Origin: Thermalbibacter longus
GTDB lineage: Bacteria; Chloroflexota; Chloroflexia; Thermomicrobiales; Thermomicrobiaceae
Assembly: GCF_023806485.1 (NCBI RefSeq)
Contig: NZ_JAMSLR010000005.1
Coordinates: forward strand, 95,976 to 159,975
DNA length: 64,000 nucleotides
Reading direction: 5' to 3'
Both the position numbers and the translations under genes were made by a program. Below the pieces are notes generated by a model. That model ran no database searches. It worked only from the letters and a program-made list of their open reading frames with translations, and was not told where the DNA came from. Position 1 is the first letter of the stretch, and every line of letters begins with the position of its first letter. Shown here one piece after another: positions 1 to 7,378 of the stretch.

Positions 1-1929
1 GCGCAGTGACACGTCGGGATCTCCGAACTCCAGCCCGCGGCTTCGCCAGTAGGCCCGGAAGTACGAGCAGACCCGGTGCCCGGTTTGCCAGAAGTAGGTG
101 CAATCCTCGCGCTCTTCCGGCACTGGCTCGCGTGGCTGGAACGGCTCGGTGTCGAGGAGCCCGCGAGAGGCCGCATCCTCGTATCCCAGGAGCCCGAGCT
201 GGACCTCGTACGGCGTACCGCTGAGCTCCGGGTGGTACTCGAGGCGTGCCCGCTCGAACTCCTGCACAGTCACTGCCTGGCCTGTCCGTGGGTCTCTCCG
301 TTCGACCGCCTCGCTGATCGGATAGCCGAAAGTCGAGAGCCCACCGTTCCGCTCCCAGAACGCTCTAAAGACATCGGCGATCGCCTCCTCAGGCAGCACA
401 GCCCGTCCGGGGGTGAGACCTGGTGGAGATGACTCGGGGGACAGGGCCTCGGCCTCGTTGATCGCTCCGGTCTCGGTCGTGGTCTCTGCCGGCGGGCCTG
501 CCTGGCTCTGAGCGGGCAGCGGCGTATCGGTCGACTCTGCCGGTGCCCGGCCGGAGCCGAGCGCGAAGACGGTCAAACCGATCACCAGCGTCGCGCCGGT
601 CATTGCTAGCGCCGCTGTGCGGTAGCCATGAGACGGTACCGGGAGCCTGAGCCAGGTTAGCAGGTGAGGCCGGCCCACGAACAGCAGCCCAACAGCGAGC
701 AGCCCGACCAGCACGCCGGCCACGGCCATGTCGAGGTAGCTGATGACCAGTAACTCCGCTTCCTGATTCTTCGAGAGCGCGACCGGCGAGGCGGGTGAGA
801 GTCCGGGGGCGCCTGCGACACTGACCAGGTATTCCCCACGTGGGAGCGACGTGACGAACGCCTGCCGGTCTGGACCGAACGGGATGACCTCAACCGAACC
901 GTCGGGATACTGGAGCTTGATACCCTCGCCGATCGGAAAGCCGAACAGCGCATCTCGCGCCGTGAACCGGGCTGCGTAGAGCAGCAGCTCGATCTGCAGT
1001 CGAGCGCCGGGCTGGAGGTAGAACCGCTGCTGGAACTGGTTCACGACGTTGGTGCCGCCGATGATGACGCTTTCGACCGACCACTGGACGGGCGTTTCCT
1101 CCAACCCGTTGACGCGCCGGACAACCCGCCCAGCTTTGAACCACTCTGGGCCCGGGTCCGTTAGCGTGCGTGTCTCGCCGAGGCTGCTCTTGAGCGTGAT
1201 CGAGGTGATCCGCTTCGGGTCTACCGGCAACCCCGCGAGATCGACGAACGAGAAGCTCGCCTGATAGCTGACGTCGAATCCGACCTCGAGCGACTTCATC
1301 TCCGGGATCTCGACCTCGCGTGCGGTGGTGAAGATCTCGTCCCCCCAGCGGCTGAACTCGGCGCGCATGTCGTCCCGCTCGATGGGGAGCACTTCCAGCG
1401 GGTAGATCCCGGGCGTCGAGACCTCGACGCGCGCTACGCCGTCCGCACCCGAGCGGAGGGTCTGCCCATTGAACGAGAAGGTGACGCCAGCGAGGGCTGG
1501 GACGGTTTTGATCTCGAGCACGGCCGGCGCGATCGTCAGCGTCGCTGTGGCGCTCGCCGGTTGCAGCGAGCGGCTGCCTGCGTACACCACCGTGACGGTG
1601 TATTGCCCGACTGGGAGGAATCGGCGGATCGGGAACGATGCGACGCCGGCGAAGTTCGTCCGTGTTCGCCGCTCGCGCACGCCATCGATAAACAGCTCGA
1701 GTGCCTCATTGTTGACGGCGCCGGGGATGTCGCCAGTCGAGCTGGTGAGCTGGGCGACGATGGTAAAGTCCTCGCCGACCGTGACCGGATCGAGCGGCTG
1801 GATCGTCAGCGCAGTCGGAAGCGGCGAGTCCTCGGCGGCTCGGGCCGACGCCGCGGGTAGCAGCGTGCCGAAGGCGATGAGCGCTAGAGCGAGAATTATG
1901 CTCGCGAAATACCCTTTTGATGATCTCAT
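1..1929 (-). CDS. Exported membrane-anchored protein with C-terminal FW-NGG-FGYPI repeats (partial, C-terminus outside window)
   Basis: An open frame runs from ATG at 1929 to the window edge with no stop (at least 643 codons). It begins with a signal peptide (basic start, hydrophobic stretch, ASARA cleavage-like site at about residue 30), followed by Ig/bacterial beta-sandwich-like sequence (residues 35-390), two hydrophobic segments near residues 400-450, a Pro/Thr/Glu-rich linker, then a repeat around residues 508-600 with FW..NGGL, FGYPI and F.RARLEYHPE motifs. A second copy starts at about residue 608 and is cut off. Such repeats are common in secreted Chloroflexota proteins and are presumed to bind cell-surface polymers. 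The start overlaps the stop of the upstream phosphoesterase gene by ATGA, so the two are translationally coupled. Specific function is unknown. Confidence 0.8.
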   Translation of the reverse strand, partial: MRSSKGYFASIILALALIAFGTLLPAASARAAEDSPLPTALTIQPLDPVTVGEDFTIVAQLTSSTGDIPGAVNNEALELFIDGVRERRTRTNFAGVASFPIRRFLPVGQYTVTVVYAGSRSLQPASATATLTIAPAVLEIKTVPALAGVTFSFNGQTLRSGADGVARVEVSTPGIYPLEVLPIERDDMRAEFSRWGDEIFTTAREVEIPEMKSLEVGFDVSYQASFSFVDLAGLPVDPKRITSITLKSSLGETRTLTDPGPEWFKAGRVVRRVNGLEETPVQWSVESVIIGGTNVVNQFQQRFYLQPGARLQIELLLYAARFTARDALFGFPIGEGIKLQYPDGSVEVIPFGPDRQAFVTSLPRGEYLVSVAGAPGLSPASPVALSKNQEAELLVISYLDMAVAGVLVGLLAVGLLFVGRPHLLTWLRLPVPSHGYRTAALAMTGATLVIGLTVFALGSGRAPAESTDTPLPAQSQAGPPAETTTETGAINEAEALSPESSPPGLTPGRAVLPEEAIADVFRAFWERNGGLSTFGYPISEAVERRDPRTGQAVTVQEFERARLEYHPELSGTPYEVQLGLLGYEDAASRGLLDTEPFQPREPVPEEREDCTYFWQTGHRVCSYFRAYWRSRGLEFGDPDVSLR

Positions 1930-3353
1930 TCGTCGGGTGCTCCCCTCGATCTCTTCGTCATCGAGCGCCTCCGGCGCCGGGTGAGTCTCCTCAGTGGGTA
2001 GACAGGGTCGGCGCTTCGCTGGCGGCGGGAATCGAGCGCTGCCCAGCCGATGACCGAGCCGGCCAGGACGAGCCCCATCCCGTAGGCGCTATAGATCACG
2101 CCGCGTCGCGGGCTGGGGCGCTGCTCCTCACTGACTCGTTCCTCCGGGATGAAGACTGGTGGCCGGGGTGGCTGGGAGAAGTCGAAGGCGTTGATGATGC
2201 TGTTGGCGCGGGCGTCGCGCTCCGCTAGTGGCTCGAGCCCCCAGTTCTCCTCGATGAACTTGAGGATCGAGGTGAAATCGAGCTCAGTGTGATCGATATA
2301 GCCGCGCTTGGCGTACGGGCTGACCAGGAAAGCCGGGACGCGGAAGCCGTAGCCGTAGTCGTCGACCTTCGGCGGAGGAACGTGGTCGTACCAGCCGCCC
2401 CAGTCGTCGTAGGTGACCATGAAGGCCGAGCTCTCCCACGCGTCGCTACGCATCAGGGCCTGGATCAGCGACTTCACGAACCGCTGCCCTGCCCGGATGC
2501 TCCCGGGCGGGTGCTCGCTGGCGCCCGATGGCACGATGTAGGCCACCGAGGGCAGCGTGCCGTTCTGGAGATCGGTGAAATACTCGTCCAGCGGCACGAT
2601 GTGGCTGAACAGATCGGGATTGTCGATGAAGCGCGGGAAGTTGAGCAGCGGGCACCACACTACCTGAGCGGCGCGCTGGCCTCCCTGGTCCATCGTGCGG
2701 AAGGTGATCGTCGGGTCGTAGTTCTGGATGTAGAACTTCCAGGAGATCCCGCGCTCCTCCAGCCGGTCGAAGATCGTGATCACGTCGTCGCCGTATCCCT
2801 CGGGAGGGATCCGGTTCTCCTCGCTGCCCGGCTGGGCCGCGACCCAGTACATGTGGTTCCAGACGCTGCCGCCTATGGCGGAGCTGAAGAAGCGATCGAA
2901 TAGCACGTACTGGTCGACCAGGTTCCAGTAGTAGGGCAGGTCGCGGCCATCGTAGTAGCCCATGGCGAGCGATCCCTCCTGGTTGCGCAGTCGCAGGGCC
3001 CAGATGAAGCCGTCCATCTTCCCGCCGTTGTACTGGTTCAGTGCAGTCGCGGTGCTGTGATCGAGGTCTTCGATCGGCCGGTTTCCGATGTGGAACGGCT
3101 CGACGCACTCGCTCGCTGGGTCGGCGGGATCGACCGGCATGCAGACCCCCTCCGGGATCCCGTCGGCGCCGGGGTAGGTGCCGAAGTAGTTGTCGAAGGT
3201 GTGGTTCTCCTGCATCAGCACGATGAAGTGCTTGATCGGCGTCTTCGGCTGTGGCTCGGCGGCCCGCGCCGCGCGCTGGGGCAGGAGCCCGATGAACAGG
3301 GCCAGGCAGGCCAGGAGTGTCGAGACAGTGGAAAAGACTCGCCGGCCGATCAT
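1926..3353 (-). CDS. Phospholipase C / acid phosphatase family phosphoesterase, membrane anchored
   Basis: 475 aa. Residues 1-31 form a signal peptide ending in ARA. The family (PF04185, phosphoesterases including phospholipase C and AcpA-type acid phosphatases) is shown by the N-terminal metal-site motif HFIVLMQENHTFDNYFG at about residues 42-58 and by TYDDWGGWYDHV around residue 315. These supply the Asn/Glu, Asp and His ligands expected in the family. Near residues 420-445 a hydrophobic segment (YGMGLVLAGSVIGWAAL) followed by an Arg-rich tail should anchor the enzyme with the catalytic domain outside. It hydrolyses a phosphodiester or phosphomonoester in phospholipids or polymers; the substrate is not evident. 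It overlaps both neighbours by ATGA and so belongs to the envelope operon. Confidence 0.88.
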   Translation of the reverse strand: MIGRRVFSTVSTLLACLALFIGLLPQRAARAAEPQPKTPIKHFIVLMQENHTFDNYFGTYPGADGIPEGVCMPVDPADPASECVEPFHIGNRPIEDLDHSTATALNQYNGGKMDGFIWALRLRNQEGSLAMGYYDGRDLPYYWNLVDQYVLFDRFFSSAIGGSVWNHMYWVAAQPGSEENRIPPEGYGDDVITIFDRLEERGISWKFYIQNYDPTITFRTMDQGGQRAAQVVWCPLLNFPRFIDNPDLFSHIVPLDEYFTDLQNGTLPSVAYIVPSGASEHPPGSIRAGQRFVKSLIQALMRSDAWESSAFMVTYDDWGGWYDHVPPPKVDDYGYGFRVPAFLVSPYAKRGYIDHTELDFTSILKFIEENWGLEPLAERDARANSIINAFDFSQPPRPPVFIPEERVSEEQRPSPRRGVIYSAYGMGLVLAGSVIGWAALDSRRQRSADPVYPLRRLTRRRRRSMTKRSRGAPDE

Positions 3354-4981
3354 GGGCGCACCTCGTAGATGACGATGACCGGCTTCTGCACGACGGAGCC
3401 GTCAGGGGCGGCCACCGGGATCGACTCGGTGTGCACGATCCGCCCGTGGTATCGCCGGGCGTAGCTGAGCAGCTTCTCGGAGAAGAACGGTGATCGACCG
3501 GCTGAGAACGAGTCCCAGACGATGTACTGCAGCTCGCCGCTCCGGAGCTGGAGGTCAGGGTTGAAAATGGGTTCGTAGGACGGATTGCGGTGCAGCGGGT
3601 TCGGGCTGACGGAAAGCCCTTTCCCCTGGCGATGCCCGTAGAACTGGATGATGTTCGCCATCGACGGCCCGACGGTCATGAAGCGCGCTCCCTCCGGGGT
3701 GTTCTCTCGGATCCACTCTCCCGCTTCGCGCCCGCCCGGCACGCCTCCCGAGCCAGCGAGGAACCGGTCTGACGTCGAGGCCTGGATGCGCGACCAGCTC
3801 GGAACCAGCAGCGTCAGCGCGATAGCCCCGGCCAGGAGCGGGGCGAGCCACCCCGCACGCCGGATCTTGGTGGCGGCTGCCCGTTGTCCGAGCTGGATGA
3901 CCGCTTGAGCGGCGAGGATCGCGAGGGGCGGTGCGATCGGCAGGAGGTACTGGAACCCTTTCGTCGGCCAGGACTGGAAGAACAGCACCGGCACTACGAT
4001 CCAGGCCACGAGCAGCTTCTCGCGCCAGCTCCACCGGCGGCGAACCAGCCAGAGCCCGAGGAGCGCGGTCAGGATCAGGAGCGGGCCGATGGCGAGCGGC
4101 ACCGTCGAGGGATAGAACGTCCACTCGTGGTTCGGCCGCCGGAACAGTTGCCAGACGAGATACTGGTGAGCGCGCTGCGAGCCGCCCCCGCCGGCCAGCG
4201 TGATCGAGAGGGGGAAGGGGGCGATGACCAGCGCCATGATGGCGGTGGAGAGCGCCAGGTCGCGCAGGCGAAAGCGGATCTCCGGTGCCAGGGCCAGGAA
4301 GGCGTAGATGCTACCGAGCAGGATGATGCCGGTCTCCTTAGCCAGGAAGGTCAGACCCATGCCGGCTCCGGCGGCGTAGAGCCACACCGGGCGCTCGGTG
4401 GCCGCGAAGCGCGACACCATGTAGAGGCTGAGCGTTGCGCAGAAGGTCATCGGGCCATCGAGCAGGATCTGGCGCGTCACGATAACGTGGTACGGCATGA
4501 GCGCCAGGAACAGCGCAGCGATTGCGCCGGCGCGTCGCCCGTAGAGCCGCGCTCCGGCCCGGTAGACCAGGTACACCGTTGCCAATCCGACAGCGACGGA
4601 GACGAGCCGGCCGACCAGGTCGGATCCATCCGTGCCGCCGATCGGATACGCGAGGGCCAGGATGAACTGGAAGAGGAGCGGATGGGCGCGGAAGATCGGA
4701 AAGAACTGGCTCAGGATCGGGTCCCCGGCGATGGCCGCTGCCTGTCCCAGGTAGACTGCCTCGTCGCTGTTCAGGCCGAGGCTGTTGATCTGCCAGAGCC
4801 GGAGCGCGGCTCCGGTAACCAGCGCAAGTGCGAGTATCAGCCGATCGACCGTCGCTGCCGCCCCGGCGGCCACCAGCGCGCGCCGGGGCCAGGGGTGAGC
4901 GCCGACCCGAGGGAGGGACGTGGCTGGAGATGCGTTGCTCTTTGTGCGTTGTCGTTGATCGATATGAGGCTTCGTTGCCAC
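3350..4981 (-). CDS. GT39/ArnT-like polytopic glycosyltransferase
   Basis: 543 aa beginning at GTG, chosen because AGGAGCAAGA precedes it. After about 50 polar residues the protein has roughly ten to twelve hydrophobic helices, with an acidic motif after the first (NSLGLNSDEAVYLGQAA, residues 68-84), the signature of PMT/ArnT-type enzymes (PMT_2, PF13231). These transfer a sugar from a polyprenyl-phosphate donor on the outer membrane face. The C-terminal approximately 110 residues are soluble and include GEWIRENTPEGARFM, typical of the extracytoplasmic domain of this family. The downstream phosphoesterase starts within its stop codon. The adjacent GT2 fusion could supply the lipid-linked sugar donor, a common pairing, so a role in decorating a surface protein, lipid or polymer is inferred. 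Confidence 0.85.
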   Translation of the reverse strand: MATKPHIDQRQRTKSNASPATSLPRVGAHPWPRRALVAAGAAATVDRLILALALVTGAALRLWQINSLGLNSDEAVYLGQAAAIAGDPILSQFFPIFRAHPLLFQFILALAYPIGGTDGSDLVGRLVSVAVGLATVYLVYRAGARLYGRRAGAIAALFLALMPYHVIVTRQILLDGPMTFCATLSLYMVSRFAATERPVWLYAAGAGMGLTFLAKETGIILLGSIYAFLALAPEIRFRLRDLALSTAIMALVIAPFPLSITLAGGGGSQRAHQYLVWQLFRRPNHEWTFYPSTVPLAIGPLLILTALLGLWLVRRRWSWREKLLVAWIVVPVLFFQSWPTKGFQYLLPIAPPLAILAAQAVIQLGQRAAATKIRRAGWLAPLLAGAIALTLLVPSWSRIQASTSDRFLAGSGGVPGGREAGEWIRENTPEGARFMTVGPSMANIIQFYGHRQGKGLSVSPNPLHRNPSYEPIFNPDLQLRSGELQYIVWDSFSAGRSPFFSEKLLSYARRYHGRIVHTESIPVAAPDGSVVQKPVIVIYEVRP

Positions 4982-5041: not shown

Positions 5042-7378
5042 CTACGTCGCGCTCGCCCCGGTCGCCACGACCGGCGATGCCGGTTGCTCCACCGGAGGTC
5101 GTGCATCGCGCAGGTTGACGAGCATCGGGATACGCTGCCACCAATCCATCGCGCTGCTGCGGAGCAGCCGGGCCGGAACGCCGCTCAGCGCCCGCTCGAC
5201 GATCTGGCGCTCGAGCAGTTGCAGGTCCTGTCCTCCGGAACTGTGGAGGTAGTGGCGGATCACCGGGTACGGTGGGAACCCGTACGCGTCGTCACTGTTG
5301 CTCAGCAGCGTCTCCAGCGCCGCGCGATCATCGAGCGGGACTTCTCCCTCACCGCCGCGCTCGATGACGAACATCCCAGCGAGCTTGGCTTCGCGCGTCC
5401 ACTTCGCGCGCGGTACGAGCTGCTGGATGTGGTACTTGGGCGGCGGCACGATCCACTGCACCACAGCGTTGATGGTGGCGACCGGCAATCTCGTGCGGGC
5501 TAGCAAGAGTGCGAACCGTCGCCCCTCTCGCGAGTGCAGGCGACTCTGCACCCAGAGGCCGAAGCGCTGCCGGCGTGTGAGCATCGGGGTGTTGACGGCG
5601 GCGACCGTGTGCCGGCTGATCGTCATCGGCTTCGGATAGCTCAGGACCCGACCGTCGGGACTGAGCAACGTCAGATCGTCGGAGAGGAAGGCGCCAGTAT
5701 CGGTGGCCCGGCGCTGGCGGTCGAGCACGCGCAGGATGGTGGTGGTCTTTCCGGTATCGGTGCGGGCCGTCACCAGGTAGGCTTCGTCGCCGAAGGCGAT
5801 GCAGGCGCCGTGGACGAGGGCATAGCCCTTTCTCACGAACGTCCACCGCAGGATCGGCTCCACCACGTTGGTGTAGAGCACATGCGGCGATCGGCGTAGG
5901 AACGGCGAGGCAATCACCTCGACTGTCTCACCCATAGTGACGTCGATCCAGAATCCCAGTGGGCCGAGGCCATCGTCGTAGAAGAATCGCCGGCCATCCG
6001 GCGTCGCGCCGACCGTCCCTGGTCGGCCGAGCGGGCCCGGTGGCCGCAGCCCGCCGATCCGCACCCGGATCGTCGGCTGAGCAATCGTCTCGGTGGTGAG
6101 GAAGCGCTCCAGCTCAGGCAGCCAGGTCTCCGACCAGACGGTGACGATCCCGTGGATGTCATAGCAGTACGGGCCGCGCGCACGTGGCTGGTGCGTGACC
6201 TTCCAGATCCAGGCGTCTGACATCCCGTAGCGCACGAGCGACAGGGAGACCAGCGAGATGATGTTCGAGAGCACGTAGTAGATGCCCAGGATCGAGGTCA
6301 GGACATAGATCATCGGGCCGCGCACGAGCAGTGCCAGCGTGTTCACGAACGCGAACATCGCTAGACGCTCGCCCCATCGGTTGGCTTCTCGCCGGTCACC
6401 GAAGACCCAGGCGTCGGTCAGGCTGAAGTTCCAGAGCGTCGATGCCCAGGTTGCGAAGACGACCGAGAGCAGATAGTGGAAGCCGACGAGCTCGGTACCG
6501 GCAAGCAGGACGAGCGTGTTCACGAGCAGGCCGGAGAGGCCGATCGCGGCGAAGGCGGCGAAGCGCAGCGCGTCGTTGCCCAGCCGCAACGTGCCGAGAT
6601 GGGCCAGATAGCGGAACCCCTCGCGCAGCGATGCCTTGCTCTCCCCTGCATACCGTTTGCCGAACTCGAAGCCGACCTCGCTCACCTTGAGATGCCGATT
6701 CCGTACCAGAATCTCGAGCAAGATCTTGAACCCTCGTGGTCGCAGGGCGTCGATGTCGATCAGATCTTTCCGAAGCAGGAAAAATCCGCTCATCGGGTCA
6801 CTGACTCGTCGCAGCCGGCGAGGAAAGGCGAGGCGCGCAGCCGTCGTGGAGGTGCGAGAGATTGCTGTGCGTATCCCGTCGAGCCCCTCAGCTTTCCCCT
6901 CGTCGCAGTACCGGCTGGCGATTACCAGGTCGGCCTGGGTCAACCGGGCCTGAGCCAGCAAGCGCGGGATCAACTCCGGCGGGTGTTGCAGGTCCGCGTC
7001 CATAACGCATGCCCAGGATGAGCGGGCGGCTCGTAACCCAGCGACGACCGCTCCACCCAGCCCTCCGTCTCGTTGGCTGGGCGGGCGATGGATCAGGCGA
7101 ATCGGGCAGCGCGAGCGTAACGCTACCGACTCGATTACCGCAGGCGTATCGTCCTCGCTGTCATCGACGAAGATGATCTCGGAGCCTTCAGGAAGCACGC
7201 GCTCTAGCCGAGCGACGAGCGGCGCGATGTTCTCCGCCTCGTTGCGCGTCGGCGCGATGACCGATACGGGAGCGAGGACGTGCGACTCCAGGTGATGACC
7301 GTTCCCGGAGACCGGAGCCTCTGTCAGGTGGGGTGCTCGAGGGGTATCCGAACCCTCGAACGTGTGGCGGTGCTCCAT
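5042..7378 (-). CDS. GT2 glycosyltransferase - GtrA - HprK-like P-loop fusion
   Basis: 778 aa from ATG at 7378, chosen over an upstream ATG at 7537 because a GGGGGG Shine-Dalgarno lies 6 nt away and homology begins just after it. Residues 40-245 are a GT2 polyprenol-phosphate sugar synthase (SVIAPTRNEAENI; IFVDDSEDDTP; VMDADLQHPPE). Residues about 255-375 are a four-helix GtrA-like domain (AAIGLSGLLVNTLVLL, WNFSLTDAWVF). Residues about 385-778 resemble HPr kinase/PEP carboxykinase-like domains, with a Walker A-type ARTDTGKTTT near residue 540 and LSDDLTLL about 25 residues later. GT2-GtrA would make and flip a polyprenyl-phosphate sugar for the next-gene GT39 enzyme. The HprK-like tail is unexpected here and its substrate is unknown. 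First gene of the four-gene leftward operon. Confidence 0.85.
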   Translation of the reverse strand: MEHRHTFEGSDTPRAPHLTEAPVSGNGHHLESHVLAPVSVIAPTRNEAENIAPLVARLERVLPEGSEIIFVDDSEDDTPAVIESVALRSRCPIRLIHRPPSQRDGGLGGAVVAGLRAARSSWACVMDADLQHPPELIPRLLAQARLTQADLVIASRYCDEGKAEGLDGIRTAISRTSTTAARLAFPRRLRRVSDPMSGFFLLRKDLIDIDALRPRGFKILLEILVRNRHLKVSEVGFEFGKRYAGESKASLREGFRYLAHLGTLRLGNDALRFAAFAAIGLSGLLVNTLVLLAGTELVGFHYLLSVVFATWASTLWNFSLTDAWVFGDRREANRWGERLAMFAFVNTLALLVRGPMIYVLTSILGIYYVLSNIISLVSLSLVRYGMSDAWIWKVTHQPRARGPYCYDIHGIVTVWSETWLPELERFLTTETIAQPTIRVRIGGLRPPGPLGRPGTVGATPDGRRFFYDDGLGPLGFWIDVTMGETVEVIASPFLRRSPHVLYTNVVEPILRWTFVRKGYALVHGACIAFGDEAYLVTARTDTGKTTTILRVLDRQRRATDTGAFLSDDLTLLSPDGRVLSYPKPMTISRHTVAAVNTPMLTRRQRFGLWVQSRLHSREGRRFALLLARTRLPVATINAVVQWIVPPPKYHIQQLVPRAKWTREAKLAGMFVIERGGEGEVPLDDRAALETLLSNSDDAYGFPPYPVIRHYLHSSGGQDLQLLERQIVERALSGVPARLLRSSAMDWWQRIPMLVNLRDARPPVEQPASPVVATGASAT

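Follow-up and report, generated by a model that had tools for sequence, protein, structure and literature searches.

A DPMS-like glycosyltransferase fused to a conserved domain of predicted HprK/PEPCK fold in a glycosylation operon

The fusion protein and its operon

The window, a stretch of 64,000 nucleotides from Thermalbibacter longus, encodes on its minus strand a protein in which a GT2 glycosyltransferase domain and a GtrA-type membrane domain are joined to a C-terminal domain, here termed HK. The features of this gene and of its operon neighbours are as follows.

5042..7378, minus strand: three-domain GT2-GtrA-HK protein of 778 amino acids (ATG at 7378, stop at 5042)
6761..7264, minus strand: GT2 catalytic domain, DPMS-like, with the motif DADLQHPPE (residues 39-206; PF00535, 2.4e-24; alignment to 5mlz)
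6203..6553, minus strand: GtrA/DPMS four-helix membrane domain (residues 276-392; PF04138, GtrA_DPMS_TM, 9.8e-18; four long helices in the AF2 model)
5114..6193, minus strand: C-terminal HK domain of predicted PEPCK/HprK fold (residues 396-755, within the 383-residue C-terminal region 396-778; AF2 with Foldseek/VIA-align, and NCBIfam matches of relatives)
5810..5812, minus strand: His523, the His before the P-loop strand, equivalent to HprK His140 (invariant in 72/72; HMM alignment to 1knx)
5738..5767, minus strand: P-loop ARTDTGKTTT (residues 538-547; TDTGKT invariant in 69/69)
5675..5680, minus strand: Asp567-Asp568, equivalent to HprK Asp178/Asp179 (invariant in 72/72; HMM alignment to 1knx)
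3350..4981, minus strand: PMT_2 (ArnT/PMT-like) membrane glycosyltransferase, the next gene of the operon (PF13231, 4.9e-22)
1926..3353, minus strand: secreted, apparently membrane-anchored phosphoesterase (PF04185, 2.2e-77), its start overlapping the PMT_2 stop
1..1929, minus strand: Ig-like (Big_3_5) secreted protein with an internal hydrophobic segment (PF16640, 1.4e-10), its start overlapping the phosphoesterase stop

A G-rich stretch resembling a ribosome-binding site precedes the ATG at 7378, a plausible start, and a longer version of the frame extends up to 7537. The GT2 and GtrA_DPMS_TM domains both passed their Pfam cut-offs (86.6 bits versus 23.3 and 64.9 bits versus 26.1, respectively), and residues 37-392 matched the DPMS of Pyrococcus furiosus (5mlz) at 1.2e-59. 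A sequence-only reading had proposed three domains, the last an HprK/PEPCK-like P-loop module carrying ARTDTGKTTT; the motif is present at 5738-5767, and the third domain was recovered through the profile matches of its relatives and its predicted fold, described below. The fusion also occurs in three genomes of the same genus (G001-G003; dN/dS ~0.1), and in genome G050 GT2-GtrA is encoded by one gene and HK by its neighbour, ruling out chance read-through or a gene-calling artefact. The full-length AF2 model (pLDDT 85.5) contained four long helices in the GtrA part, for which reason HK, located C-terminal to these transmembrane helices, is expected to be cytosolic. The pTM of this model (0.57) makes the placement of HK relative to GT2 unreliable, and contact between the two is not claimed.

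Start-stop overlaps join the PMT_2, phosphoesterase and Ig-like genes, the last of which has its 3' end beyond the window (full length, 769 amino acids, in L097). Across the 50 HK loci with at least 4.5 kb of downstream sequence, PMT_2 was found downstream of HK in 46 and the phosphoesterase in 42, and GH99/GH71-like genes then follow in several HK loci. The genome of the window carries a 793-amino acid CBM96-GH99-metallophosphatase gene (L097:2-2380, plus strand) some 7 kb further downstream than the Ig-like gene, outside the window. The same genome also encodes a second GT2, 66% identical and without GtrA or HK (L107 5680-6390; G000:C12:69679-70389); its gene belongs to an exopolysaccharide-like cluster and has a glucose-1-phosphate thymidylyltransferase-like gene close by.

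Kinship, active-site residues and selection

Searched alone, the HK domain of the window protein gave no matches in Pfam, NCBIfam or PDB sequence searches, and a PF07475 profile search of its own genome was negative. The top PDB profile match, the de novo TIM barrel 6wvs, was rejected as a repeat artefact in which an 'SDD' motif matched four times. The cut-offs for HPr kinase/phosphorylase (PF07475, TIGR00679) were not reached; by curated models HK is not an HprK member and, with no Pfam model reaching its cut-off, annotation by such models misses the domain. The HprK similarity anticipated by the sequence-only reading became visible through 72 relatives, of which 57 matched HprK_rel_A (TIGR04352) weakly (best 1.2e-7, the window member itself remaining unmatched), 38 and 36 gave weak matches to HprK_rel_B (TIGR04355) and ScmC (TIGR04249), respectively, 18 matched hpr-ser (TIGR00679; best 2.7e-5) and 14 matched Hpr_kinase_C (PF07475; best 3.2e-4). 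Fold prediction pointed the same way: the structural matches of an AF2 model of HK alone (pLDDT 77) were almost exclusively PEPCKs and HPr kinases (Foldseek), with VIA-align Z scores of about 14 against both, the PEPCKs aligning over the whole domain and the HprKs over its P-loop half. The predicted structure of HK thus resembles solved members of the PEPCK/HprK fold.

The active-site residues of HprK include His140, Lys161 and Asp179 (PMC9399212). In an HMM alignment of the HK family to the Mycoplasma HprK 1knx, which is weak (E-value 0.3), His523, Lys544 and Asp567-568 line up, so that equivalents of His140, Lys161 and Asp178/179 are all present in HK. No substitution of the His, GKT and DD positions was seen in 69 family members or three distant cousins, and the invariance of TDTGKT in 69/69 members places the observation far beyond chance. 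Equivalents of HprK Glu204 (catalytic stretch 203-212) and of the Arg245 loop were not identified in HK, the alignment to 1knx ending after the DD motif. Near-invariant motifs special to the family are SPHVLYTN, TDTGKT, PKPxT, QSRxHS, PPPK and DAxxFPP. The canonical P-loop GxxGxGK[ST] is not preserved, HK having ARTDTGKT, in which, compared with HprK and PEPCK, the middle Gly is replaced by an invariant Asp (Asp541) and the first Gly by Ala.

This altered P-loop could permit nucleotide binding without phosphotransfer, and HK might then have lost phosphotransfer and bind only nucleotide or partner enzymes, as a scaffold or switch. The replacement of the middle Gly by Asp and the extensive motif conservation away from the P-loop and DD (SPHVLYTN, QSRLHSR, PPPKY) would suit such a role, which we nevertheless judge unlikely, given that H523, G543-K544-T545 and D567-D568 do not vary from the 69 members to the three cousins, unlike a decaying site. 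With its catalytic-type residues kept, HK looks like an intact kinase. Comparison with three same-genus genomes yielded dN/dS values of 0.09-0.12 for HK, 0.06-0.08 for GT2 and 0.09-0.11 for GtrA. HK is under purifying selection about as strong as that on the other two domains, ruling out that only the glycosyltransferase parts are conserved, one of two outcomes that the sequence-only reading had set against its own proposal; the other, a lack of profile similarity to HprK/PEPCK, did not occur either once relatives were brought in.

An HPr gene is present in seven of the 12 HK carriers searched, including the genome of the window, and was not found in the other five (G008, G011, G014, G018 and G050), four of which are at least 90% complete; HPr was therefore rejected as a general substrate of HK. 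That HK is a usual HPr kinase/phosphorylase acting on Ser46 of HPr is very improbable. The weak matches of its relatives to hpr-ser and Hpr_kinase_C and the HPr of the window's genome agree with such a function, to which are opposed the lack of any HprK model match in the window protein, the N-terminal HprK domain not found with Pfam, the carriers in which HPr was not found and the locking of HK to a glycosylation operon.

Distribution of HK and its link to PMT_2

A single scan of 84,980 species genomes recovered 78 HK loci, mostly in Chloroflexota/Thermomicrobiota and Actinomycetota, with further carriers in Dormibacterota and Deinococcota (Truepera) and single records in Acidobacteriota and Verrucomicrobiota; most records are metagenome bins, so the single records may be binning errors. 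The modular REARRANGEMENT of HK, counted by open frame in the 78 loci, comprised 42 GT2-GtrA-HK, 14 GT2-HK, 4 GtrA-HK and 15 HK-alone frames, the remaining 3 being cut by contig ends. GtrA lies nearby in 13 of the 14 GT2-HK loci, and the HK-alone frames, some possibly cut, have GT2 nearby in 13/15 and GtrA nearby in 13/15. Genome G312 encodes GtrA, HK and PMT_2 fused in one chain of 1211 amino acids (L101:5652-9284). The fusion had been called unusual from sequence alone, which holds insofar as it is absent from most genomes, but it turns up repeatedly in several phyla, with no fewer than four fused arrangements. On the tree the phyla form clusters that interleave, a pattern suggestive of transfer or differential loss, with bin errors and paralogy as alternatives. 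HK represents a genuine, conserved family of kinase-like domains that lacks annotation and belongs to a glycosylation operon found in several phyla.

The locus that differs most plainly from this operon is on a 737-kb Spartobacteria contig (L052), with GtrA-HK and no GT2, PMT_2 or phosphoesterase match within 6 kb. In a two-contig genome, a frameshift splits the GT2 part of the fusion (G004:C1:496191-497272; L006), representing a sequencing error or a pseudogene. Distant HK cousins (~22% identical) directly adjoin a WcaA-like GT2 in L103, L104 and L106, and the pairing of an HprK-like domain with GT2 thus recurs in another context; very large secreted proteins lie near the cousins in L103 and L104, with CBM96 and a metallophosphatase in L104.

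Among 61 relatives, strong HK matches and close GT2-GtrA matches fell in the identical 12 genomes; PMT_2 was confined to this group, occurring in 11 of the 12 and in 0 of the remaining 49. HK was detected at high significance in 19 of 400 genomes of the phylum and the PMT_2 of the HK operon in 15, in every case with HK on the same contig (15/15), 0.1-2.3 kb off or fused; in four of the 19 HK genomes no PMT_2 match at 1e-40 was found. Fisher's test for the co-occurrence of HK and PMT_2 in this sample gave 6e-24, a value inflated by the relatedness of the genomes, and the profile counts are likewise not independent. DPMS-like GT2(-GtrA) matches at 1e-40 were present in 75 of the 400 genomes, 59 of them without HK, and 17 of those 59 contained a full-length GT2-GtrA match. 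Since this PMT_2 always came with HK whereas DPMS-like proteins were often found without it, HK tracks one PMT_2 pathway and not general DPMS chemistry. The case for a pathway-specific step, and against a role in general control of the synthase or in polyprenol supply, depends mainly on this tracking.

As a regulator, HK would be a protein kinase or ATP sensor that phosphorylates a Ser or Thr of GT2, PMT_2 or another protein and tunes glycan supply to the energy state, comparable to the catabolite control exerted through HprK. In favour of this role, the substrates of known HprK-fold kinases are Ser hydroxyls in proteins or peptides (PMC8498205), a kinase joined covalently to the glycosyltransferase would make self-control possible, and the catalytic-type residues are intact. 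A regulator would, however, be expected to be lost occasionally while the pathway stays, yet all 15 PMT_2 genomes retain HK, no close GT2-GtrA lacks HK among the 61 relatives, and DPMS-like proteins elsewhere exist without it; we consider this role rather unlikely. The earlier proposal that the module could phosphorylate a sugar-lipid or a protein and thereby regulate glycan supply is accordingly only partly retained: the catalytic-type residues seem to be intact, but the distribution of HK is more readily explained by a pathway-specific step than by general DPMS control. Less likely still, HK could be a polyprenol kinase feeding polyprenyl phosphate to the attached GT2, which would account for a cytosolic-side fusion to a synthase using that lipid; against this, HK tracks the PMT_2 subfamily, is missing from 59 of the 75 genomes with DPMS-like GT2, and is in one copy fused to PMT_2 instead of GT2.

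Proposed pathway and comparison with known systems

Our preferred explanation, held with slightly less than even confidence, is a DPMS-type synthase fused to a cytosolic kinase of HprK/PEPCK fold that would act on a substrate specific to a surface pathway of the lipid-linked-mannose type; HK would thus be an integral enzyme of this pathway and not an HPr-type catabolite regulator. The explanation draws on what is established here: three domains in one protein, the predicted fold, nucleotide-binding and catalytic-type residues that do not vary in the family, the action of purifying selection, and close genetic linkage of HK to a single PMT_2 subfamily. GT2-GtrA would form a sugar-P-polyprenol on the cytosolic face and help its transfer across the membrane. 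The donor sugar is probably mannose, from GDP-Man, and the acceptor probably polyprenyl phosphate; for mannose we rely solely on the similarity of GT2 to its nearest solved relative, the GDP-Man enzyme 5mlz, and on the GH99-like neighbours. HK, using ATP, would phosphorylate a hydroxyl of a pathway-specific substrate before or during export, most likely the lipid-linked sugar and, as second choice, the acceptor. A pathway-specific hydroxyl is suggested because HprK homologues can take substrates other than HPr and because HPr was not found in five carriers. PMT_2 would move the product onto an acceptor outside, where the secreted phosphoesterase and the GH99-like glycosidase may trim or remodel the glycan.

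A more specific version is possible, if doubtful: HK would represent an undescribed HprK/PEPCK-fold kinase family that phosphorylates the lipid-linked sugar (or a protein acceptor) as an obligatory step in mannosylation-like glycan assembly by bacteria, the phospho-sugar being flipped, transferred by PMT_2 and then processed by the secreted phosphoesterase. The open-licence literature yielded nothing relevant on HprK with GtrA or on HprK-related kinase, nor a description of the phosphorylation step, which is no proof of absence. The GT2, GtrA, HK, PMT_2, phosphoesterase and GH99-like genes would form a defined set in which, for Chloroflexota and Actinomycetota, a lipid-linked sugar in phosphorylated form could be sought.

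The fold and the partner enzymes are known and their combination is new. The best named sequence relatives of HK, matched weakly, are HprK-related kinases A and B and ScmC (TIGR04352, TIGR04355 and TIGR04249), none of which is known to have a fused GT2, GtrA or PMT_2. In DPMS, which forms Dol-P-Man from GDP-Man at the cytosolic side of the membrane, a cytosolic catalytic domain is combined with four transmembrane helices (PMC5526996). The P. furiosus enzyme shares with the window protein the GT2 and four-helix GtrA-type domains, end to end over residues 37-392 and with DADLQHPPE kept, but it is archaeal, has no kinase-like C-terminal domain and uses a GDP-Man donor that was shown there and is inferred here. 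With HprK (1jb1, 1kkl, 1knx, 1ko7), HK has in common the core fold (Z ~14) and, in alignment, the P-loop Lys, the DD pair and the His preceding the P-loop strand; it differs in its altered P-loop, its other N-terminal part, a large helical region with family-specific motifs, its glycosylation-operon context and the several carriers in which no HPr was found. ATP-dependent PEP carboxykinase matches the fold over the whole HK domain (1-371; Z ~14, 280-291 residues aligned), but HK gives no Pfam sequence-profile match to it and stands in another genomic context.

The lasso-peptide kinases are HprK homologues that phosphorylate the C-terminal Ser of the precursor peptide; one of the clusters also has a nucleotidyltransferase, by which hexoses are subsequently attached to the Ser phosphate (PMC8498205). 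A further HprK-like gene (L016:1093-3080) adjoins a lookalike, judged by eye, of an NTP_transf_5-type nucleotidyltransferase, reminiscent of this phosphoglycosylating pair. HK is likened to these kinases by description, as an HprK-homologous kinase recruited to biosynthesis, there phosphorylating a pathway intermediate; they are peptide kinases in RiPP clusters, whereas HK is fused to membrane glycosyltransferase modules. HprK-fold kinases being known for HPr control and lasso-peptide tailoring, the HK family, spread over several phyla and physically linked to enzymes of a lipid-linked-sugar pathway, would add surface glycosylation to the roles of the fold.
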